Virus record (IMG/VR): IMGVR_UViG_3300037585_000165
Span: 1 to 24,298 of that record
Direction: 5' to 3' (one strand)
Source of the DNA: a virus
Length of the DNA stretch: 24,298 nucleotides
Part shown: one piece after another, positions 2,792 to 14,413 of the stretch
Layout of the letters: every line of letters begins with the position of its first letter
How positions within the stretch are numbered: the stretch's first letter is position 1
Notes under the pieces: generated by a model
Seen by the model: only the letters and a program-made list of their open reading frames with translations
Told to the model about the DNA's origin: nothing
The model's database searches: none
Made by a program: the position numbers and the translations under genes

Positions 2792-4102
2792 TTACTGTAC
2801 AAAATACTTTCCAAAGTTATTATCTATTTCATAAAACATTCTCATAGCTAAAGCATCTGAATAGTCAGGAGATCTACCTATTATGTCTTTGACTATTTCT
2901 TTAGGAACTATTTGTAGCTTAGTGTCTTTGTCTGCGTCTTTCATTCTTACTTGCTCACACTCTTCAATGATATGATTTTTTACATTTATATCAGGGCAAG
3001 TTATTCCTATCTGAGCTTTGTTAATTAATTCAGCTAACTTGTAATAGCACTGAGTCTTTAGGTTCTGATAATTCTCTTTTTTTAATGGTCTTGCATTGTT
3101 AGTAAATCCTTGACACCTGAGAAAGTCTTTAGCTCCACCCCCAACCCCATCTTCGTCTATAATGATATGGCGTAATGGTACACCGTTAGTCTGTTGTAAT
3201 TGCCTTACTTCGTCTACAACGTCATTTACAGCCGATTTAAGCAACGTTCTTATCTTTTTAATATGTAACCCCTCCCAATACATTATAACTGTTCTATCAC
3301 TTCCAAAACGTGCTACATCACAACTGATAAACTTTTGACCTTCTATTCCTTTTTGAGTAAACATATTTATTATAGCATCATATTCAATTAAATTATCTTT
3401 ACTTGCATCATATTCCCAATTCCCAAATAGGAGTCTTTGTTTACTGAGTTCATCTAATGTTTCTAACTGAGTCTTGTAATACTTAGAAATGTATTCATTA
3501 TCATCTACAAGGCTTTGAATAAACTTTCTATATGGTTTTTGTTTACCTTCTTTTGATGGTCTGTAGTATTGAGTATACACCCAATTCTTAGCAGGATTAC
3601 AGGTCATTAACATCTTTGGAATTAATCCATAGTCATCTAACTTGTATCTCATTCTTGAAGCTACAATATTTTTGGCTTTCTCTGTTATCTGATTTGCTTC
3701 ATCTATAAAAGCTCCTGTTATTTCTAATGAACCTAAGTTGTCAAAGTTCCTATCACTTGGGTACAAGAATAAATCCTTTAGCATTATCTCTGACTTATTA
3801 TAGAACTTAATGATGTTAGATCCTCCATTAAAATTGTAATGTTTATTAGCTTTCAAACCCCACGCGTCACATACTTCTAAAAAAGTATTCAGAGTTGTCT
3901 TTTTCAAACTATCTAATTTTGACCTGCCCATTAAGTACCTAGTCTTTGGATATTTTAAACACATAAGAATCAACCAACTACAGCCCACCCAAGATTTACC
4001 ACCACCTGCTGCTCCACCAAATAATACTTCAGTAGTGGTTTTGTCAAATAGATATTCTATTGCTTCTGCTTGAGTGCTTGTAAATTCTGTATCAATATTC
4101 AA
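2792..4102 (-). CDS. terL: Terminase large subunit (TerL)
   Basis: A 436-residue packaging motor ATPase and nuclease that cuts concatemeric phage DNA and pumps it into the prohead through the portal. Visible motifs are the Walker A loop GGAAGGGKS (29-37), Walker B with the catalytic acid GAFIDEA (130-136), a coupling motif TCNP (167-170), and nuclease-domain acidic residues D262 in CDVARFGSD, D316/D318 in IIIDEDG, and D413/D416 in SPDYSDA. These match the order in TerL proteins, and the length is normal. It overlaps the small subunit by 11 bases, so the two are coupled. It lies about 12 kb from the portal gene, which is unusual. Confidence 0.95.
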   Translation of the reverse strand: MNIDTEFTSTQAEAIEYLFDKTTTEVLFGGAAGGGKSWVGCSWLILMCLKYPKTRYLMGRSKLDSLKKTTLNTFLEVCDAWGLKANKHYNFNGGSNIIKFYNKSEIMLKDLFLYPSDRNFDNLGSLEITGAFIDEANQITEKAKNIVASRMRYKLDDYGLIPKMLMTCNPAKNWVYTQYYRPSKEGKQKPYRKFIQSLVDDNEYISKYYKTQLETLDELSKQRLLFGNWEYDASKDNLIEYDAIINMFTQKGIEGQKFISCDVARFGSDRTVIMYWEGLHIKKIRTLLKSAVNDVVDEVRQLQQTNGVPLRHIIIDEDGVGGGAKDFLRCQGFTNNARPLKKENYQNLKTQCYYKLAELINKAQIGITCPDINVKNHIIEECEQVRMKDADKDTKLQIVPKEIVKDIIGRSPDYSDALAMRMFYEIDNNFGKYFVQ

Positions 4103-4445
4103 CTCCCTTGATATTTACATTAATCTTAATTGGCTCATCACCTGAACTGAGGTCAAGTTCTGATCTTTCTATATACCCTCGTCTTTTTCCTTTAGTCTTT
4201 AAAAAGAATATTGTAGCTGATGTATTTCCATCTCCAATCTGTTTATGTAACTGACTTTCACCAAAGTCTAGTGCTATATTCTCTATGTCTTTTACTGCCT
4301 TAGCAAAATCCTCGTCCTCTTTTAGCCATTTATAATATGTTGAACGTGGAACATCTGAAGCTTTACAAGCTACTGTAACCACCCCCAAACTATTCTCTAA
4401 TGCTTTTAAAATACTTTCCTTTTTTATATGTCTACTTTTGTCCAT
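4092..4445 (-). CDS. terS: Terminase small subunit (DNA-recognition subunit)
   Basis: A 117-residue protein immediately upstream of and overlapping TerL. Residues about 10-45 form a helix-turn-helix of the homeodomain type: a helix ending in SLGVV, then CKASDVPRSTYYKWLKED. A helical oligomerisation-like part follows, with the phrase GDGNTSATIFFLKTKGKRRGY common in small terminases of this type. It recognises the packaging site and recruits the large subunit. Its start lies inside the last codons of the TAGT-like glycosyltransferase gene, overlapping by 14 bases, so packaging genes and the candidate DNA-modification genes look like one coupled operon. Confidence 0.85.
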   Translation of the reverse strand: MDKSRHIKKESILKALENSLGVVTVACKASDVPRSTYYKWLKEDEDFAKAVKDIENIALDFGESQLHKQIGDGNTSATIFFLKTKGKRRGYIERSELDLSSGDEPIKINVNIKGVEY

Positions 4446-5307
4446 TATTATATTTTAGTTTCATACCATAATTATTAACTTTGTTTTTTACCTTATATGA
4501 TTTTTTCTTTATTAACTTAGTTTTTTTAAATGGCGTATAATCAACGTGATGATGTATTCTACCAAATCTAAATGTAAGTCGTGATACGTCAGGGTGTACA
4601 TCTACTTGCATTTGACTCTTTGGCAAAGTTCCTTCTTTATCATAAAACTCTGCTGAGTTTCCACCTCTTAATACTTGTGTAGTAGTTTTTAGTTGCATAA
4701 AAGCATTAAATTGAATTGTACAATATCCTGCTTTTAACATATCTAAACTCAATATAGTGTCTTCATTATAGCGTCCCCTCCATTTAAAAGGTACATCATT
4801 CTTAATTAAATTGCAGCTATATATTCTAGTATTCTTAACAAATGGTGGTACAGCTTGTTTACGTGGCACGAACATATAATAGTTTGGTCCTGCCATTGCT
4901 ACATTCTCATACCTTTCTACAAAATCTTCCATAGCTTTAAATCCTGCACCATTTCCCAAAGGTATTTGTAGATTGTTATTCATTCTCAAAAACCTATCTA
5001 TGTTGTCATCCATTACCCAATGATATTCAAATCCATTTTCCTTAGAATGATCCCAAACAAAGTTTCTTGCTGCACCCGGTCCTGTGCTTTTAGATCTTCC
5101 AAGTTTATCTAAAACTTCATATTCATCAAAATATTTTTCAGGCAATATTAATATCTTTTTTTTATCAATTACAGCTGAATAATCTTTGTACTCACTTTTT
5201 TCTATTACAATATTATAAGGCACATTCATCTTTTCTAATGCTTTACTTGTCAGCCTACTATCTGCCCTGCCTTTTGAAACTATATATAATGGATATTTAG
5301 GATTCAT
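4432..5307 (-). CDS. TET-associated glycosyltransferase (TAGT/GREB1-like) family protein
   Basis: A 291-residue protein I recognise as the TAGT or GREB1-related glycosyltransferase family. It begins PLYIVSKGRADSR (6-18), has GPGAARNFVWDH (76-87), then a DXD-like metal/sugar-nucleotide site in HWVMDDN (96-102), AGPNYYMFVPRK (139-150), RGRYNEDT (177-184) and a late FRFGRIHHHVDY segment. The family was predicted by comparative genomics to attach sugars to oxidised (hydroxymethylated) pyrimidines in phage DNA, often near TET/JBP dioxygenases. No such dioxygenase is visible here. It overlaps the upstream glycosyltransferase and the downstream terminase small subunit, forming a tight cassette. Family call is confident; substrate is inference. 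Confidence 0.85.
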   Translation of the reverse strand: MNPKYPLYIVSKGRADSRLTSKALEKMNVPYNIVIEKSEYKDYSAVIDKKKILILPEKYFDEYEVLDKLGRSKSTGPGAARNFVWDHSKENGFEYHWVMDDNIDRFLRMNNNLQIPLGNGAGFKAMEDFVERYENVAMAGPNYYMFVPRKQAVPPFVKNTRIYSCNLIKNDVPFKWRGRYNEDTILSLDMLKAGYCTIQFNAFMQLKTTTQVLRGGNSAEFYDKEGTLPKSQMQVDVHPDVSRLTFRFGRIHHHVDYTPFKKTKLIKKKSYKVKNKVNNYGMKLKYNNGQK

Positions 5308-6292
5308 ATAATGTTATTTCATAGCTTTTATCATATAAAATTGATCTCCAATCTTTTCCAAATATATGCTTTGCTTCTTTAGCTAATAAACAATCATCTT
5401 TTAATTTTTCCCAAAAATCATTATCTACACCTGAAGATTTATTAAAAGCACTCTCAAAGAAATGTTGTACTATAAAAGATTTTTCAAAGATCTCATTAAT
5501 ATCAGGAAGTGTATGCCCAAATAATTCTGTTTTACCATCTAACCTTGAAGGTGACTCTAAAGAGTAGCACTTTTCTTTTCCAAGCCAAGCAGGTAGTGGG
5601 CAAAAATACAGAGGCTGATAAACTTTTGATTTTTTATCAATACTCATTAATTTTTTTATTGTCCATATTACATAATTCCAAGATTTACTATCTGTTTTTG
5701 GTTCTTCCATTAATGTATTCATAATTTTATGAGAAAGTGATGCAATATGTTTTGATATATTCTTACTAACTTTTACAGGAAAAGCAGCTAATGATTTACC
5801 ATTCCAACTTTTATCATTAATAAATAAAGGAGGGTGGGCATCACCCCATTTTGGAGCAAATCCACCTGTGAGTTTTGCAGGCATAGAAGCAAACCAACCA
5901 TCATCTTCAGGAAGCTGTCTAAGTATTACAGCGTCCATATCTAAAACGACACCTAAGATCTCTGAAGCAACTTTTAATCTTACTGCATCTGATATATGAG
6001 CTATGCTATGACCATTTACTAAAGAGTTATACGCTTGTTTAGATGGAAATATCTCATTTGCATTTTTTACTTTTATACCTTTAGGAACTTGACCCTCATT
6101 AAATTCTTGATACGAATAAAGTGTAGTATCATTATTAAATTTAATATGAGATCCTAAACTTAAAAGATGGAATGGTGAAATATTTATTTTTCTACTTAAC
6201 CACTTATTGTAATCATAATCAATTTTATTATCATAACTACTCCAAAATAAAATATATTTATTATTCATATGTTTTATCAAATTGCTTTGCAT
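5297..6292 (-). CDS. DXD-motif glycosyltransferase (GT32-like, GT-A fold)
   Basis: A 331-residue protein with the signature of DXD sugar transferases related to Gly_transf_sug/OCH1-like enzymes. This is a H-x-S-D-A-x-R-L helix (99-106) followed by GVVLDMDAVIL (114-124), where D118 and D120 would bind metal and the nucleotide-sugar. The N-terminus (WSSYDNKIDYDYNKWL) and C-terminal HHFxxS-type phrase (QHFFESAF) fit the fold. The true start may be Met9 (ATG at 6268-6266), which would shrink the overlap with the ParB-like gene from 32 to 8 bases. Between a ParB-like gene and a TAGT-like enzyme, it could add a sugar, or a second sugar, to modified DNA. A virion-protein or host-surface target is possible. 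Confidence 0.75.
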   Translation of the reverse strand: MQSNLIKHMNNKYILFWSSYDNKIDYDYNKWLSRKINISPFHLLSLGSHIKFNNDTTLYSYQEFNEGQVPKGIKVKNANEIFPSKQAYNSLVNGHSIAHISDAVRLKVASEILGVVLDMDAVILRQLPEDDGWFASMPAKLTGGFAPKWGDAHPPLFINDKSWNGKSLAAFPVKVSKNISKHIASLSHKIMNTLMEEPKTDSKSWNYVIWTIKKLMSIDKKSKVYQPLYFCPLPAWLGKEKCYSLESPSRLDGKTELFGHTLPDINEIFEKSFIVQHFFESAFNKSSGVDNDFWEKLKDDCLLAKEAKHIFGKDWRSILYDKSYEITLYES

Positions 6293-6848
6293 TTTTTACT
6301 TCAGGAAACCATAATGATTTTGTTTTATCTGTTATTTGCTGATTCAATAATTTTGCAAAACTCTTAATGTCATCTTCATTTTTAAAAGACACTATGAGTT
6401 GTCTTATAGGTGTCTTATCCTCTTGATTAAATTCAGGCATATCAGTCCACTCTAAATCAGCATCTAGCTCATTTTTATCATCTTGATTTTCCCATACATC
6501 TAAACCCCACTCTGTAATTTTAATTGTATTCCATTCATTACCTAACATAGCCCAATCCCACTCTCCAAAACCTACGTTATCTTTAACAATAAATTCTTTT
6601 TTTTGTTCTTCTGTAAGTCCTTCAGCTACTTCAATCCATATATCTTTAAGTCCTGCTTGTTTACTTGCTTTCAATCTCATATTACCACCTAGCACTACCA
6701 TATCTTCATCTACTACAATAGGTCTGAGCTTCAGCATTTCAGGAAAATCTTGTATTGATTTTACTAGCTTCATAAACTTATCGTTCTTAATGATTCGCGG
6801 ATTACTTGGGTTGCTTTTTACTTTGTTTATTTTAACTTGTTGTTTCAT
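6261..6848 (-). CDS. ParB/Srx-domain protein
   Basis: A 195-residue protein whose N-terminal 110 or so residues form a ParB-type domain: KSNPSNPR (11-18), then a segment LKLRPIVVDEDMVVLGGNMRLKA split around residues 39-61, with the GGNxR box at 54-58. The domain then has a DNVGFGEWDW phrase characteristic of phage ParB-like proteins. The C-terminal part ends in KTKSLWFPE and has no methyltransferase motifs, unlike many ParB-methyltransferase fusions. ParB-domain proteins are repeatedly linked with phage DNA modification loci. Here it opens a coupled run with two glycosyltransferases, consistent with a role in that pathway or its DNA targeting. The function is inferred. Confidence 0.75.
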   Translation of the reverse strand: MKQQVKINKVKSNPSNPRIIKNDKFMKLVKSIQDFPEMLKLRPIVVDEDMVVLGGNMRLKASKQAGLKDIWIEVAEGLTEEQKKEFIVKDNVGFGEWDWAMLGNEWNTIKITEWGLDVWENQDDKNELDADLEWTDMPEFNQEDKTPIRQLIVSFKNEDDIKSFAKLLNQQITDKTKSLWFPEVKNAKQFDKTYE

Positions 6849-8761: not shown

Positions 8762-9169
8762 TTACTCAATTCCTTTATCTTTTTTTATGTTTTCAACAAG
8801 GTTTTTGTAATAACTGATTTTATCCTCATAATCTAATCTAGTAAACTTGACTATTGACTTAGATAATAATTGTAGTTCTTCTGCTTTTCCTTCACCATAT
8901 TTTGAGTCTAAATATAATGCAAATTTATACTGTTCACCTGCACGAAACATATTACAAGCTACACATTGAGGTTGGCAATTCTCTTCGTCAAATCTTGTAG
9001 CTAGAAAACTTCTTGATTGGAAATGTCCACATTGCATTCCTTTTTTGTAATACTTTACAGAGCCACAAGTGAAGCATTGGCAAAGTCCTTCATCTGTCGC
9101 ATCTCTTAGCCTTATGTAAAGACTGAACCATTTGTCTAGATGCTTTTTTAATTTAGATATTGTCTTCAA
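8762..9169 (-). CDS. ninG: NinG-like recombination protein (Rap family)
   Basis: A 135-residue protein with the zinc-binding pattern of lambda NinG/Rap: C32-x2-C35 (CFTCG), MQCGHFQSR with C47 and H49, and CQPQCVACN with C69/C72. N-terminal helices read WFSLYIRLRD. NinG-type proteins process recombination intermediates and resemble HNH nucleases. It lies next to a nuclease-like gene and downstream of replication genes, matching the lambda arrangement of recombination accessories. It overlaps the upstream gene by 17 bases. Confidence 0.85.
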   Translation of the reverse strand: MKTISKLKKHLDKWFSLYIRLRDATDEGLCQCFTCGSVKYYKKGMQCGHFQSRSFLATRFDEENCQPQCVACNMFRAGEQYKFALYLDSKYGEGKAEELQLLSKSIVKFTRLDYEDKISYYKNLVENIKKDKGIE

Positions 9170-9578
9170 TTTTAATCAGGTTTCTTTTGTCAATTTTTAC
9201 CATTAGTTCAATATCGTGTGTGCTTCCTTTTCTTTTCTTGCGACCACCAAAATAAAATTCACCATTAAGATTTTCAATTCTTTGATAAGCTATGTAGTCA
9301 TTAAATGCCCATATTATAGCTACAGGTTTTTTATGTTTTATTTGTTCTGCCTGACAGTCTACTAGCTTTCTCATTGATACAACTACATAGTCTTTATCAT
9401 CATAATTACTATGGACTCCTTTGACTTCAGCTAGTCCAACAAGTTTAGTATTTTTTCTAAGAAATGAATCAATAGCAGCAAAGTCATTATTCTCTGTAAA
9501 AGTCATTCCAAAATTCTTGCAAAATATTTCTAAAGCATTTGTTTGTCTTTTCCTATTTTCTGACTTTTCAAATTTCAC
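9153..9578 (-). CDS. Putative PD-(D/E)XK nuclease
   Basis: A 141-residue basic protein with GTG as start codon at 9578-9576 (the first residue is still Met). The segment around D37, followed by a beta strand ending in GLAEVKG with E51 and K53, fits the D...ExK core of PD-(D/E)XK nucleases such as resolvase-like or VRR-type enzymes. The C-terminal half is beta-rich and basic (GGRKKRKGS). Its neighbours are NinG-like and replication genes, so a role in branch resolution or DNA end processing is plausible. The GTG overlaps the stop of the 38-residue ORF upstream as GTGA. Family placement is tentative. Confidence 0.55.
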   Translation of the reverse strand: MKFEKSENRKRQTNALEIFCKNFGMTFTENNDFAAIDSFLRKNTKLVGLAEVKGVHSNYDDKDYVVVSMRKLVDCQAEQIKHKKPVAIIWAFNDYIAYQRIENLNGEFYFGGRKKRKGSTHDIELMVKIDKRNLIKIEDNI

Positions 9579-13681: not shown

Positions 13682-14413
13682 TTACAAAGGCATTAAAAGA
13701 TTTAAAGGAGTTTCGCCATTATTTAATACTACAGCGCAACCAACTGCCGGTCTTTTGCCATATTTAGCATAAGCCATAGCGTAAGACTTATGATTTATTC
13801 CGCAGCCTACCTGAGTTCCAAAGACTCTGAACTTCTTACCTACATAATGTTCTGTATAACATTGTGTGTGGAGATGCCCTTGTACTGTGTTCATCATATC
13901 AGCACGACATTTAGTCCTTGCAGTACCGCCTTCACCGTGTATATACTGAACACCATCTTGCTCATAGCGTTCTACAAAATCCCAATTAGGCGTTCCTAAA
14001 ACTTCTTTGTAGGACTTAATCCATTTACTTGGAATAGCTGAGGTCTGAGCCTTACGCATTATAATTCGGTCGTGATTTCCGATTATAACTTTAGTGCCTT
14101 TTTCGTCAAAGGCGTTGTACCATTTAGATATTTTTCTTGTAGCTAAATCTAATTCGTCTGCTCCACCCATACCATCTGCTGAGGTTTCGTGATATGAGCT
14201 ATAATGATTGTCTATGATATCACCTATGAAGATTGTTTGAGTACAGTTATAAGACTCATACTGCTCTAAACAAAAGTCAAGATAACCATCAAGACAAAAG
14301 GGTTCGTGAAGGTCACCGATAACTAGAACATTTCTAGCTTCGGTTTCCCTCAATTTTTTAAGTGCCACAATTTCGTGTGGCTTTAGTCTAAATCTATTTG
14401 TTTGACTTTCCAA
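13682..14413 (-). CDS. Calcineurin-like metallophosphoesterase
   Basis: A 243-residue protein with all core motifs of the metallophosphoesterase fold: GDLHEP (33-38), GDIID followed by N-H (64-70), GNHD (112-115), HGEGG (159-163) and GHLH (179-182). The metals and catalytic His are thus intact. Such phage enzymes may hydrolyse nucleotides, nucleic acids or phosphoproteins; substrate is unknown. It overlaps the holin-like gene upstream by 20 bases, so it is expressed with the lysis block although its role need not be lysis. It is followed by non-coding DNA. Confidence 0.9.
   Translation of the reverse strand: MESQTNRFRLKPHEIVALKKLRETEARNVLVIGDLHEPFCLDGYLDFCLEQYESYNCTQTIFIGDIIDNHYSSYHETSADGMGGADELDLATRKISKWYNAFDEKGTKVIIGNHDRIIMRKAQTSAIPSKWIKSYKEVLGTPNWDFVERYEQDGVQYIHGEGGTARTKCRADMMNTVQGHLHTQCYTEHYVGKKFRVFGTQVGCGINHKSYAMAYAKYGKRPAVGCAVVLNNGETPLNLLMPL

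Follow-up and report, generated by a model that had tools for sequence, protein, structure and literature searches.

A TAGT-family glycosyltransferase and its adapter module beside the terminase genes of a flavophage-like virus: a putative DNA glycosylation cassette

Introduction

Sugars on phage DNA defeat restriction and CRISPR nucleases, and such sugars are attached to hydroxylated pyrimidines. To go by the title of a 2024 study by Pyle and co-workers, viral glycosyltransferases reportedly place diverse glycans on DNA. One described enzyme of this kind is the beta-glucosyl-HMC-alpha-glucosyltransferase (Ggt) of phage T6, which adds a second glucose to the glucosylated hydroxymethylcytosine (hmC) of phage DNA (PMC13390438; PMC13216743). 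Ggt falls in family PF20691 (1e-8, above the cut-off), as does the TAGT glycosyltransferase of the locus described here. Unlike that locus, where the adapter module is carried on a ParB-like protein and no hydroxymethylase was found, Ggt has no adapter module and adjoins a dCMP hydroxymethylase.

Other phages resemble the locus in different respects. Lactobacillus phages phi jlb1 and c5 have the same gene order of ParB, TAGT, (terminase small subunit, TerS) and terminase large subunit (TerL), with overlapping ParB and TAGT genes, but their TAGT belongs to another lineage, their ParB protein ends in another adapter of ~100 amino acids and they have no GT32-like gene. Vibrio phages 1.076.O and 1.124.O and Aeromonas phage Aeh1 encode a TAGT that is 53–55% identical to the one studied here and comes with the same type of adapter (adapter-1). 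However, in these phages the module is located on the N-terminus of the TAGT, there is no ParB protein and the terminase is not adjacent. In Psychrobacter phage vB_PmaS_Y8A, a ParB protein likewise overlaps a DNA-modification enzyme and is followed by the terminase, but that enzyme is Mom (PF25680) and the ParB C-terminus is different. The kind of system is known. What sets the present locus apart is an adapter that goes with its TAGT, a slot for tailoring enzymes and the missing acceptor-maker; these features are probably new, the comparison of the adapter with the literature being partial.

Layout of the Locus

The window analysed here is the whole of the linear virus record IMGVR_UViG_3300037585_000165 (24,298 bases), which is probably a fragment. 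All its major genes lie on the minus strand. The cassette runs from a ParB-like gene (6261–6848) through a DXD enzyme (5297–6292) and a TAGT (4432–5307) to TerS (4092–4445) and TerL (2792–4102), and neighbouring genes overlap by 32, 11, 14 and 11 bp, respectively. This confirms the arrangement in the original prediction, in which three overlapping genes led by overlap into the terminase subunits. The prediction also described the three as fused in one operon. In the window this amounts to overlapping genes; a true fusion of ParB, module and glycosyltransferase exists in the relative L016/L193.

TerS was recognised by PHROG terminase small-subunit families (phrog_309, 4.6e-9) and TerL by PF04466 (3e-15). 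The source is a marine, flavophage-like virus, whose closest isolates by TerL are Flavobacterium phage 11b (54% identity) and Cellulophaga phage phi10:1 (50%). As neither ParB nor a glycosyltransferase is present among the annotated genes upstream of the terminase in these two phages, the cassette seems to be an accessory insertion. Its pattern is not due to chance, because it recurs in many independent contigs.

The first gene encodes a ParB-domain protein of 195 amino acids (6261–6848, minus strand). It matches PHROG ParB/nuclease/methyltransferase families (1e-21 to 1e-25), but its match to Pfam PF02195 (ParB/sulfiredoxin-like; 3.9e-5, 24.1 bits) is just below the cut-off of 26.3, which the close homologue in L012 exceeds with 27.0. 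The ParB-like domain occupies residues 1–118 (6495–6848, with an NPR...GGNMRLKA motif) and is 85% identical in the relatives L180 and L086, despite C-termini that bear no relation to that of the window protein.

The position between ParB and terminase is filled by different enzymes in different phages. It holds Mom in phage Y8A (PF25680, 1.8e-55), and Mom, like that of phage Mu, acts on unmodified DNA. In Pasteurella Pmp13 and Pseudoalteromonas SL25 it holds an ABC-plus-GNAT protein. A ParB gene overlapping a putative modification gene right before the terminase is seen in the window as it is in Y8A, Pmp13, SL25, jlb1 and c5. Fusions of ParB to a DNA methyltransferase recur in streptococcal phages, and the TET gene of Mycobacterium phage Nigel is overlapped by a ParB-like one, an assignment made by eye at a profile score of only 0.007. 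Because the slot elsewhere holds Mom or ABC-GNAT proteins and PF20691 contains T6 Ggt, the role in DNA modification that had been proposed for the cassette gains support.

The TAGT Glycosyltransferase

The protein encoded at 4432–5307 (minus strand, 291 amino acids) is a TAGT-family glycosyltransferase and a predicted DNA glycosyltransferase. The TAGT assignment was borne out by profile searches, with matches to PF20691 at 1.1e-44 (153.3 bits, against a curated cut-off of 27.5; domain at 4663–5295) and to phrog_842 at 1.9e-50. Three motifs conserved among 35 TAGTs, in the general form DD(N/D), (N)ED and HH, are intact in the window protein: DDN (residues 100–102, 5002–5010), a putative metal/sugar-nucleotide site of which both aspartates are invariant; NED (residues 181–183, 4759–4767), the probable catalytic region, invariant; and HH (residues 252–253, 4549–4554), also invariant.

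A natural fusion of module and TAGT in the relative L025 yielded a single confident model (pLDDT 91.3, pTM 0.90) with a GT-A fold; it matches GT-A enzymes at E-values of 1.5e-4 to 1e-3 and models of viral TAGTs at values down to 1.6e-24. The model of the DXD enzyme is poor (pLDDT 58.5), and the fold matches obtained with it were set aside. Sequence searches of the PDB with the TAGT and with the DXD glycosyltransferase, both single-sequence and profile, returned nothing useful.

A Short Module Accompanies the TAGT

The original prediction noted that ParB-domain proteins recur in such loci. In 80 viral loci fetched by TAGT sequence alone, the gene directly upstream of the TAGT was usually not ParB but an ORF of 71–109 amino acids. 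An alignment revealed a module of ~63 residues that these short ORFs share with the C-termini of ParB proteins and with the N-terminal extensions of long TAGTs (consensus EWxGMPEFxQ...VxFxxxEDxxxFxKLIxQxxTxKTKSxWxP...Y). In the window it occupies residues 133–194 of the ParB protein (6267–6452, minus strand; EWxxMPEF...KTKSLWFP...Y). An HMM trained exclusively on free-standing copies of the module from other contigs recovered the window ParB protein at 3.1e-23, with the next window ORF at 0.16. The module had no match in Pfam, and its matches in PHROGs were weak. ParB itself was ruled out as the constant partner of the TAGT, since most adapter-1 loci are without it; what is constant is the ~63-residue module, which here is carried on the ParB C-terminus.

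Of 139 distinct TAGTs, 81 have the module upstream as a free-standing protein (of about 70–110 amino acids), 28 have it on the C-terminus of a ParB protein, 17 carry it as an N-terminal fusion and one has it on another ORF; the 12 exceptions to the pairing are mostly contig ends or overlapping gene calls. The association also holds when the search starts from the module. Two such scans each covered the best 80 matches, in samples that partly overlap and may miss rarer arrangements. In the first, a module-only search, 79 loci were kept among the matches listed: in 73 the TAGT is directly downstream and overlapping, in 5 it is further downstream (four of them with one intervening gene) and 1 ends at the contig edge. 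In the second, made with ParB-type modules, the 78 loci among the matches listed had module and TAGT adjacent or fused (68), separated by one gene (9) or cut by a contig end (1). Thus, in every assessable case among the matches listed, a TAGT follows the module. As the module alone retrieved a TAGT in all of these loci, it may serve as bait for new DNA-sugar systems in metagenomes.

Joint Exchange of TAGT and Adapter

The window virus has a near relative in L180. TerL (82% identical), TerS (85%) and the ParB N-terminus (85%) are closely similar in the two, whereas the TAGTs share only 24% identity and the ParB protein of L180 has a C-terminus with no relation to the window adapter. This C-terminus, of ~100 amino acids, is common to 28 phage records, including Lactobacillus phi jlb1. 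In all six further distant phages inspected (E. coli phage 613R10, archaeal virus HHTV-2, Nocardia NTR1, Vibrio phiKT1024, Lactobacillus c5 and a faecal contig), an adapter of the L180 type has a TAGT of the second lineage directly downstream, and in Vibrio phiKT1024 this adapter is free-standing, without the ParB part. The second TAGT lineage forms one clade (SH-aLRT 100) on long branches.

TAGT and adapter were thus exchanged together between L180 and the window lineage, while their neighbours were kept. Since the two moved jointly and the neighbours stayed, physical docking of the adapter to the TAGT seems a reasonable reading, and the swap points to a cognate docking adapter. If adapter and glycosyltransferase swap as a unit, this would account for the exchange of DNA-sugar chemistries among phages.

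The DXD Enzyme and a Tailoring Slot

Between the ParB protein and the TAGT lies a DXD glycosyltransferase-like protein of 331 amino acids (5297–6292, minus strand), a probable sugar-extending or tailoring enzyme. Its signature, SD..R(L)...G(I/V)VLDMD, includes a DMD (DXD) motif at residues 118–120 (5933–5941), and SD..R and DMDA (within LDMDA) are kept in 16 relatives. In a comparison with GT32, the signature is conserved, but the match to PF04488 (GT32-type DXD region; E-value 0.0047, 18.0 bits) is below the cut-off of 23. Thirteen of the 16 relatives match PF04488 (best 2.7e-4), and the family consensus scores 20.5 bits. We therefore rejected an outright GT32 name and call the protein GT32-like. 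As it falls below every family cut-off and its model is of low confidence, the reaction assigned to it rests on context.

Profile searches found 25 loci with this enzyme, and a TAGT is nearby in 23 of them; of the other two, L086 is cut off near the gene and L185 shows no other cassette gene. A search of bacterial genomes with the glycosyltransferase sequence found none. In other phages, the genes between module and TAGT encode a GT4 glycosyltransferase (PF00534, 3.4e-10), FkbM methyltransferases (1.3e-17 and 1.5e-8), a class I methyltransferase or a 351-residue protein of no family. Because GT4, FkbM and class I methyltransferases occupy the same position elsewhere, it appears to be a slot for sugar tailoring and hints at sugar decorations that have yet to be explored, methylated and extended ones among them. 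These associations lend support to the second sugar step of the original prediction, and from them we infer that the DXD enzyme would add the second sugar in this phage.

The Acceptor Base

The original prediction drew attention to the lack of a TET/JBP dioxygenase, methyltransferase or hydroxymethylpyrimidine synthase. Scans of window proteins agree, with no TET/JBP, methyltransferase or hydroxymethylase among those scanned, the window being probably a fragment. The name of the TAGT family implies an association with TET/JBP dioxygenases, yet a search for PF12851 in 49 distinct related records, mostly fragments, gave no match, although it did detect the positive control, gp2 of phage Nigel; TET was thus rejected as the acceptor-maker. 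A hydroxymethylase of the thymidylate-synthase fold, as in the T4-type hydroxymethylcytosine pathway, was found neither in the window scans nor in 31 related records, nearly all fragments, in searches that detected the T6 gp42 control. Among the phages searched, such enzymes were seen only in large ones, which makes this an unlikely acceptor-maker here. Searches for C5-methyltransferases gave two partial matches in 39 records and none in a second set of 11, and those for other 2OG oxygenases (PF13640) gave none in the related records searched.

The complete TAGT phages phi jlb1, c5, HHTV-2 and NTR1, of 32–65 kb, also lack TET/JBP, thymidylate-synthase-type, C5-methyltransferase and PF13640 proteins, which makes the missing acceptor-maker a general property of the group. 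Judged from these sequences, either an unrecognised enzyme makes the acceptor or the TAGT uses a canonical base. A bolder proposal, which we regard as rather unlikely though not far-fetched, is that in small phages the adapter–TAGT pair attaches sugar to a DNA base with no help from a known hydroxypyrimidine-maker. The sugar would be coupled to an unmodified base, or the acceptor would be made by some unrecognised enzyme, for which the ParB-like protein itself is a candidate. ParB proteins would then be general carriers, into which C-terminal adapters plug different DNA-modifying enzymes. The missing acceptor enzyme in complete phages of 32–65 kb is a concrete and testable gap.

Proposed Mechanism and Alternatives

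We consider it probable that late in infection the products of the cassette attach sugar to the phage's own DNA, by means of a TAGT–adapter pair and an extending DXD enzyme, in a protective step timed to packaging. The TAGT would move a sugar from a host nucleotide-sugar onto a base in DNA, acting as a pair with the ~63-residue adapter module, and the ParB-like domain that bears the adapter would most likely load or position the TAGT on DNA. The DXD enzyme would then add a second sugar or otherwise extend the first, so that the DNA would most likely receive a sugar, and probably a chain of two, just before packaging. Overlap with the terminase genes would time glycosylation to packaging, and the sugar would shield phage DNA from host nucleases. 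We infer DNA as the target, the docking, the order of the steps and the protection from the comparisons above, and the late timing from gene order.

Several alternatives concern the targets of the two transferases. Both might glycosylate DNA but use one and the same acceptor base as alternatives to each other, not in sequence, or the TAGT alone might act on DNA and the DXD enzyme elsewhere. The DXD gene is not essential, being missing in the close relatives L012 and L013, which keep a TAGT (89% identical; TerL 85%), and its place varies: it lies before ParB, between ParB and TAGT or after TAGT, or is fused to ParB and module (L016/L193). The near-constant company of a TAGT, and the sugar-type enzymes that otherwise fill the slot between module and TAGT, argue against this reading, and we regard separate or alternative activities as unlikely. 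It is improbable, in our view, that both transferases instead modify host surface polysaccharide or protein, in serotype conversion or superinfection exclusion. Surface glycans are frequently the products of GT32-type and GT-A enzymes, the PDB fold matches of the L025 model are glycan and glycoprotein transferases, and no acceptor-base enzyme was found. However, PF20691 includes the DNA-acting Ggt, the slot beside the terminase elsewhere carries Mom and other modification enzymes, and no obvious glycan-export or integral-membrane partner was recognised nearby.

For the module, the alternative to docking is a regulatory or DNA-site-binding element that travels with the TAGT for its expression, by translational coupling. 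This would fit the module ORF typically overlapping the TAGT start, usually by 11–41 bp. Docking accounts better for the in-frame fusions of module and TAGT on scattered branches of the tree, the joint swap in close relatives, the single confident model of the L025 fusion and the persistence of the pairing across an intervening gene of 1 kb, and a purely regulatory module seems to us quite unlikely. Finally, it is very improbable that the window phage carries a decaying or inactive cassette. The TAGT reading frame is split in the relatives L181 and L182, but the window motifs are all intact and the TAGT is 97.6% identical in the independent contig L005.

Variation of the cassette in related viral loci

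In some of the related loci, the tailoring slot between the adapter module and the PF20691 glycosyltransferase (TAGT) is occupied by a class I methyltransferase family (L144, 3188-4048; L146; L157, 2356-3201; L226, 1692-2561; L252, 3130-3933), which perhaps methylates the DNA-bound sugar. The same slot holds a 351-aa protein with no Pfam family in L257-L259 (4191-5246).

Two contigs carry the TAGT reading frame in two pieces (L181, 154-1012; L182, 3681-4537), which may reflect a frameshift, an assembly error or a genuine two-part enzyme. In Aeh1 and POP12, a second small adapter-like ORF lies directly 3' of the fused adapter-TAGT gene (L087, 3894-4094 and L091, 3852-4031, respectively).

ParB genes accompany other enzymes as well. 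In two loci (L092, 2974-4619; L093, 2947-4550), the gene order is ParB, an ABC-ATPase fused to a GNAT domain, and terminase, possibly an unrecognised DNA-acylation cassette. In Mycobacterium phage Nigel (L202, 1-1744), the TET/JBP gene gp2 is overlapped by gp1, a gene assigned as ParB-like by eye and with weak profile support. This overlap suggests that enzymes of base oxidation, too, are served by ParB carriers.

Other genes in the window

A metallophosphoesterase gene (13682-14413; PF00149, phrog_221) is among the first in the order of transcription. The region 8762-9578, which precedes the packaging genes, holds a NinG-type junction nuclease gene that overlaps a PDDEXK nuclease gene.
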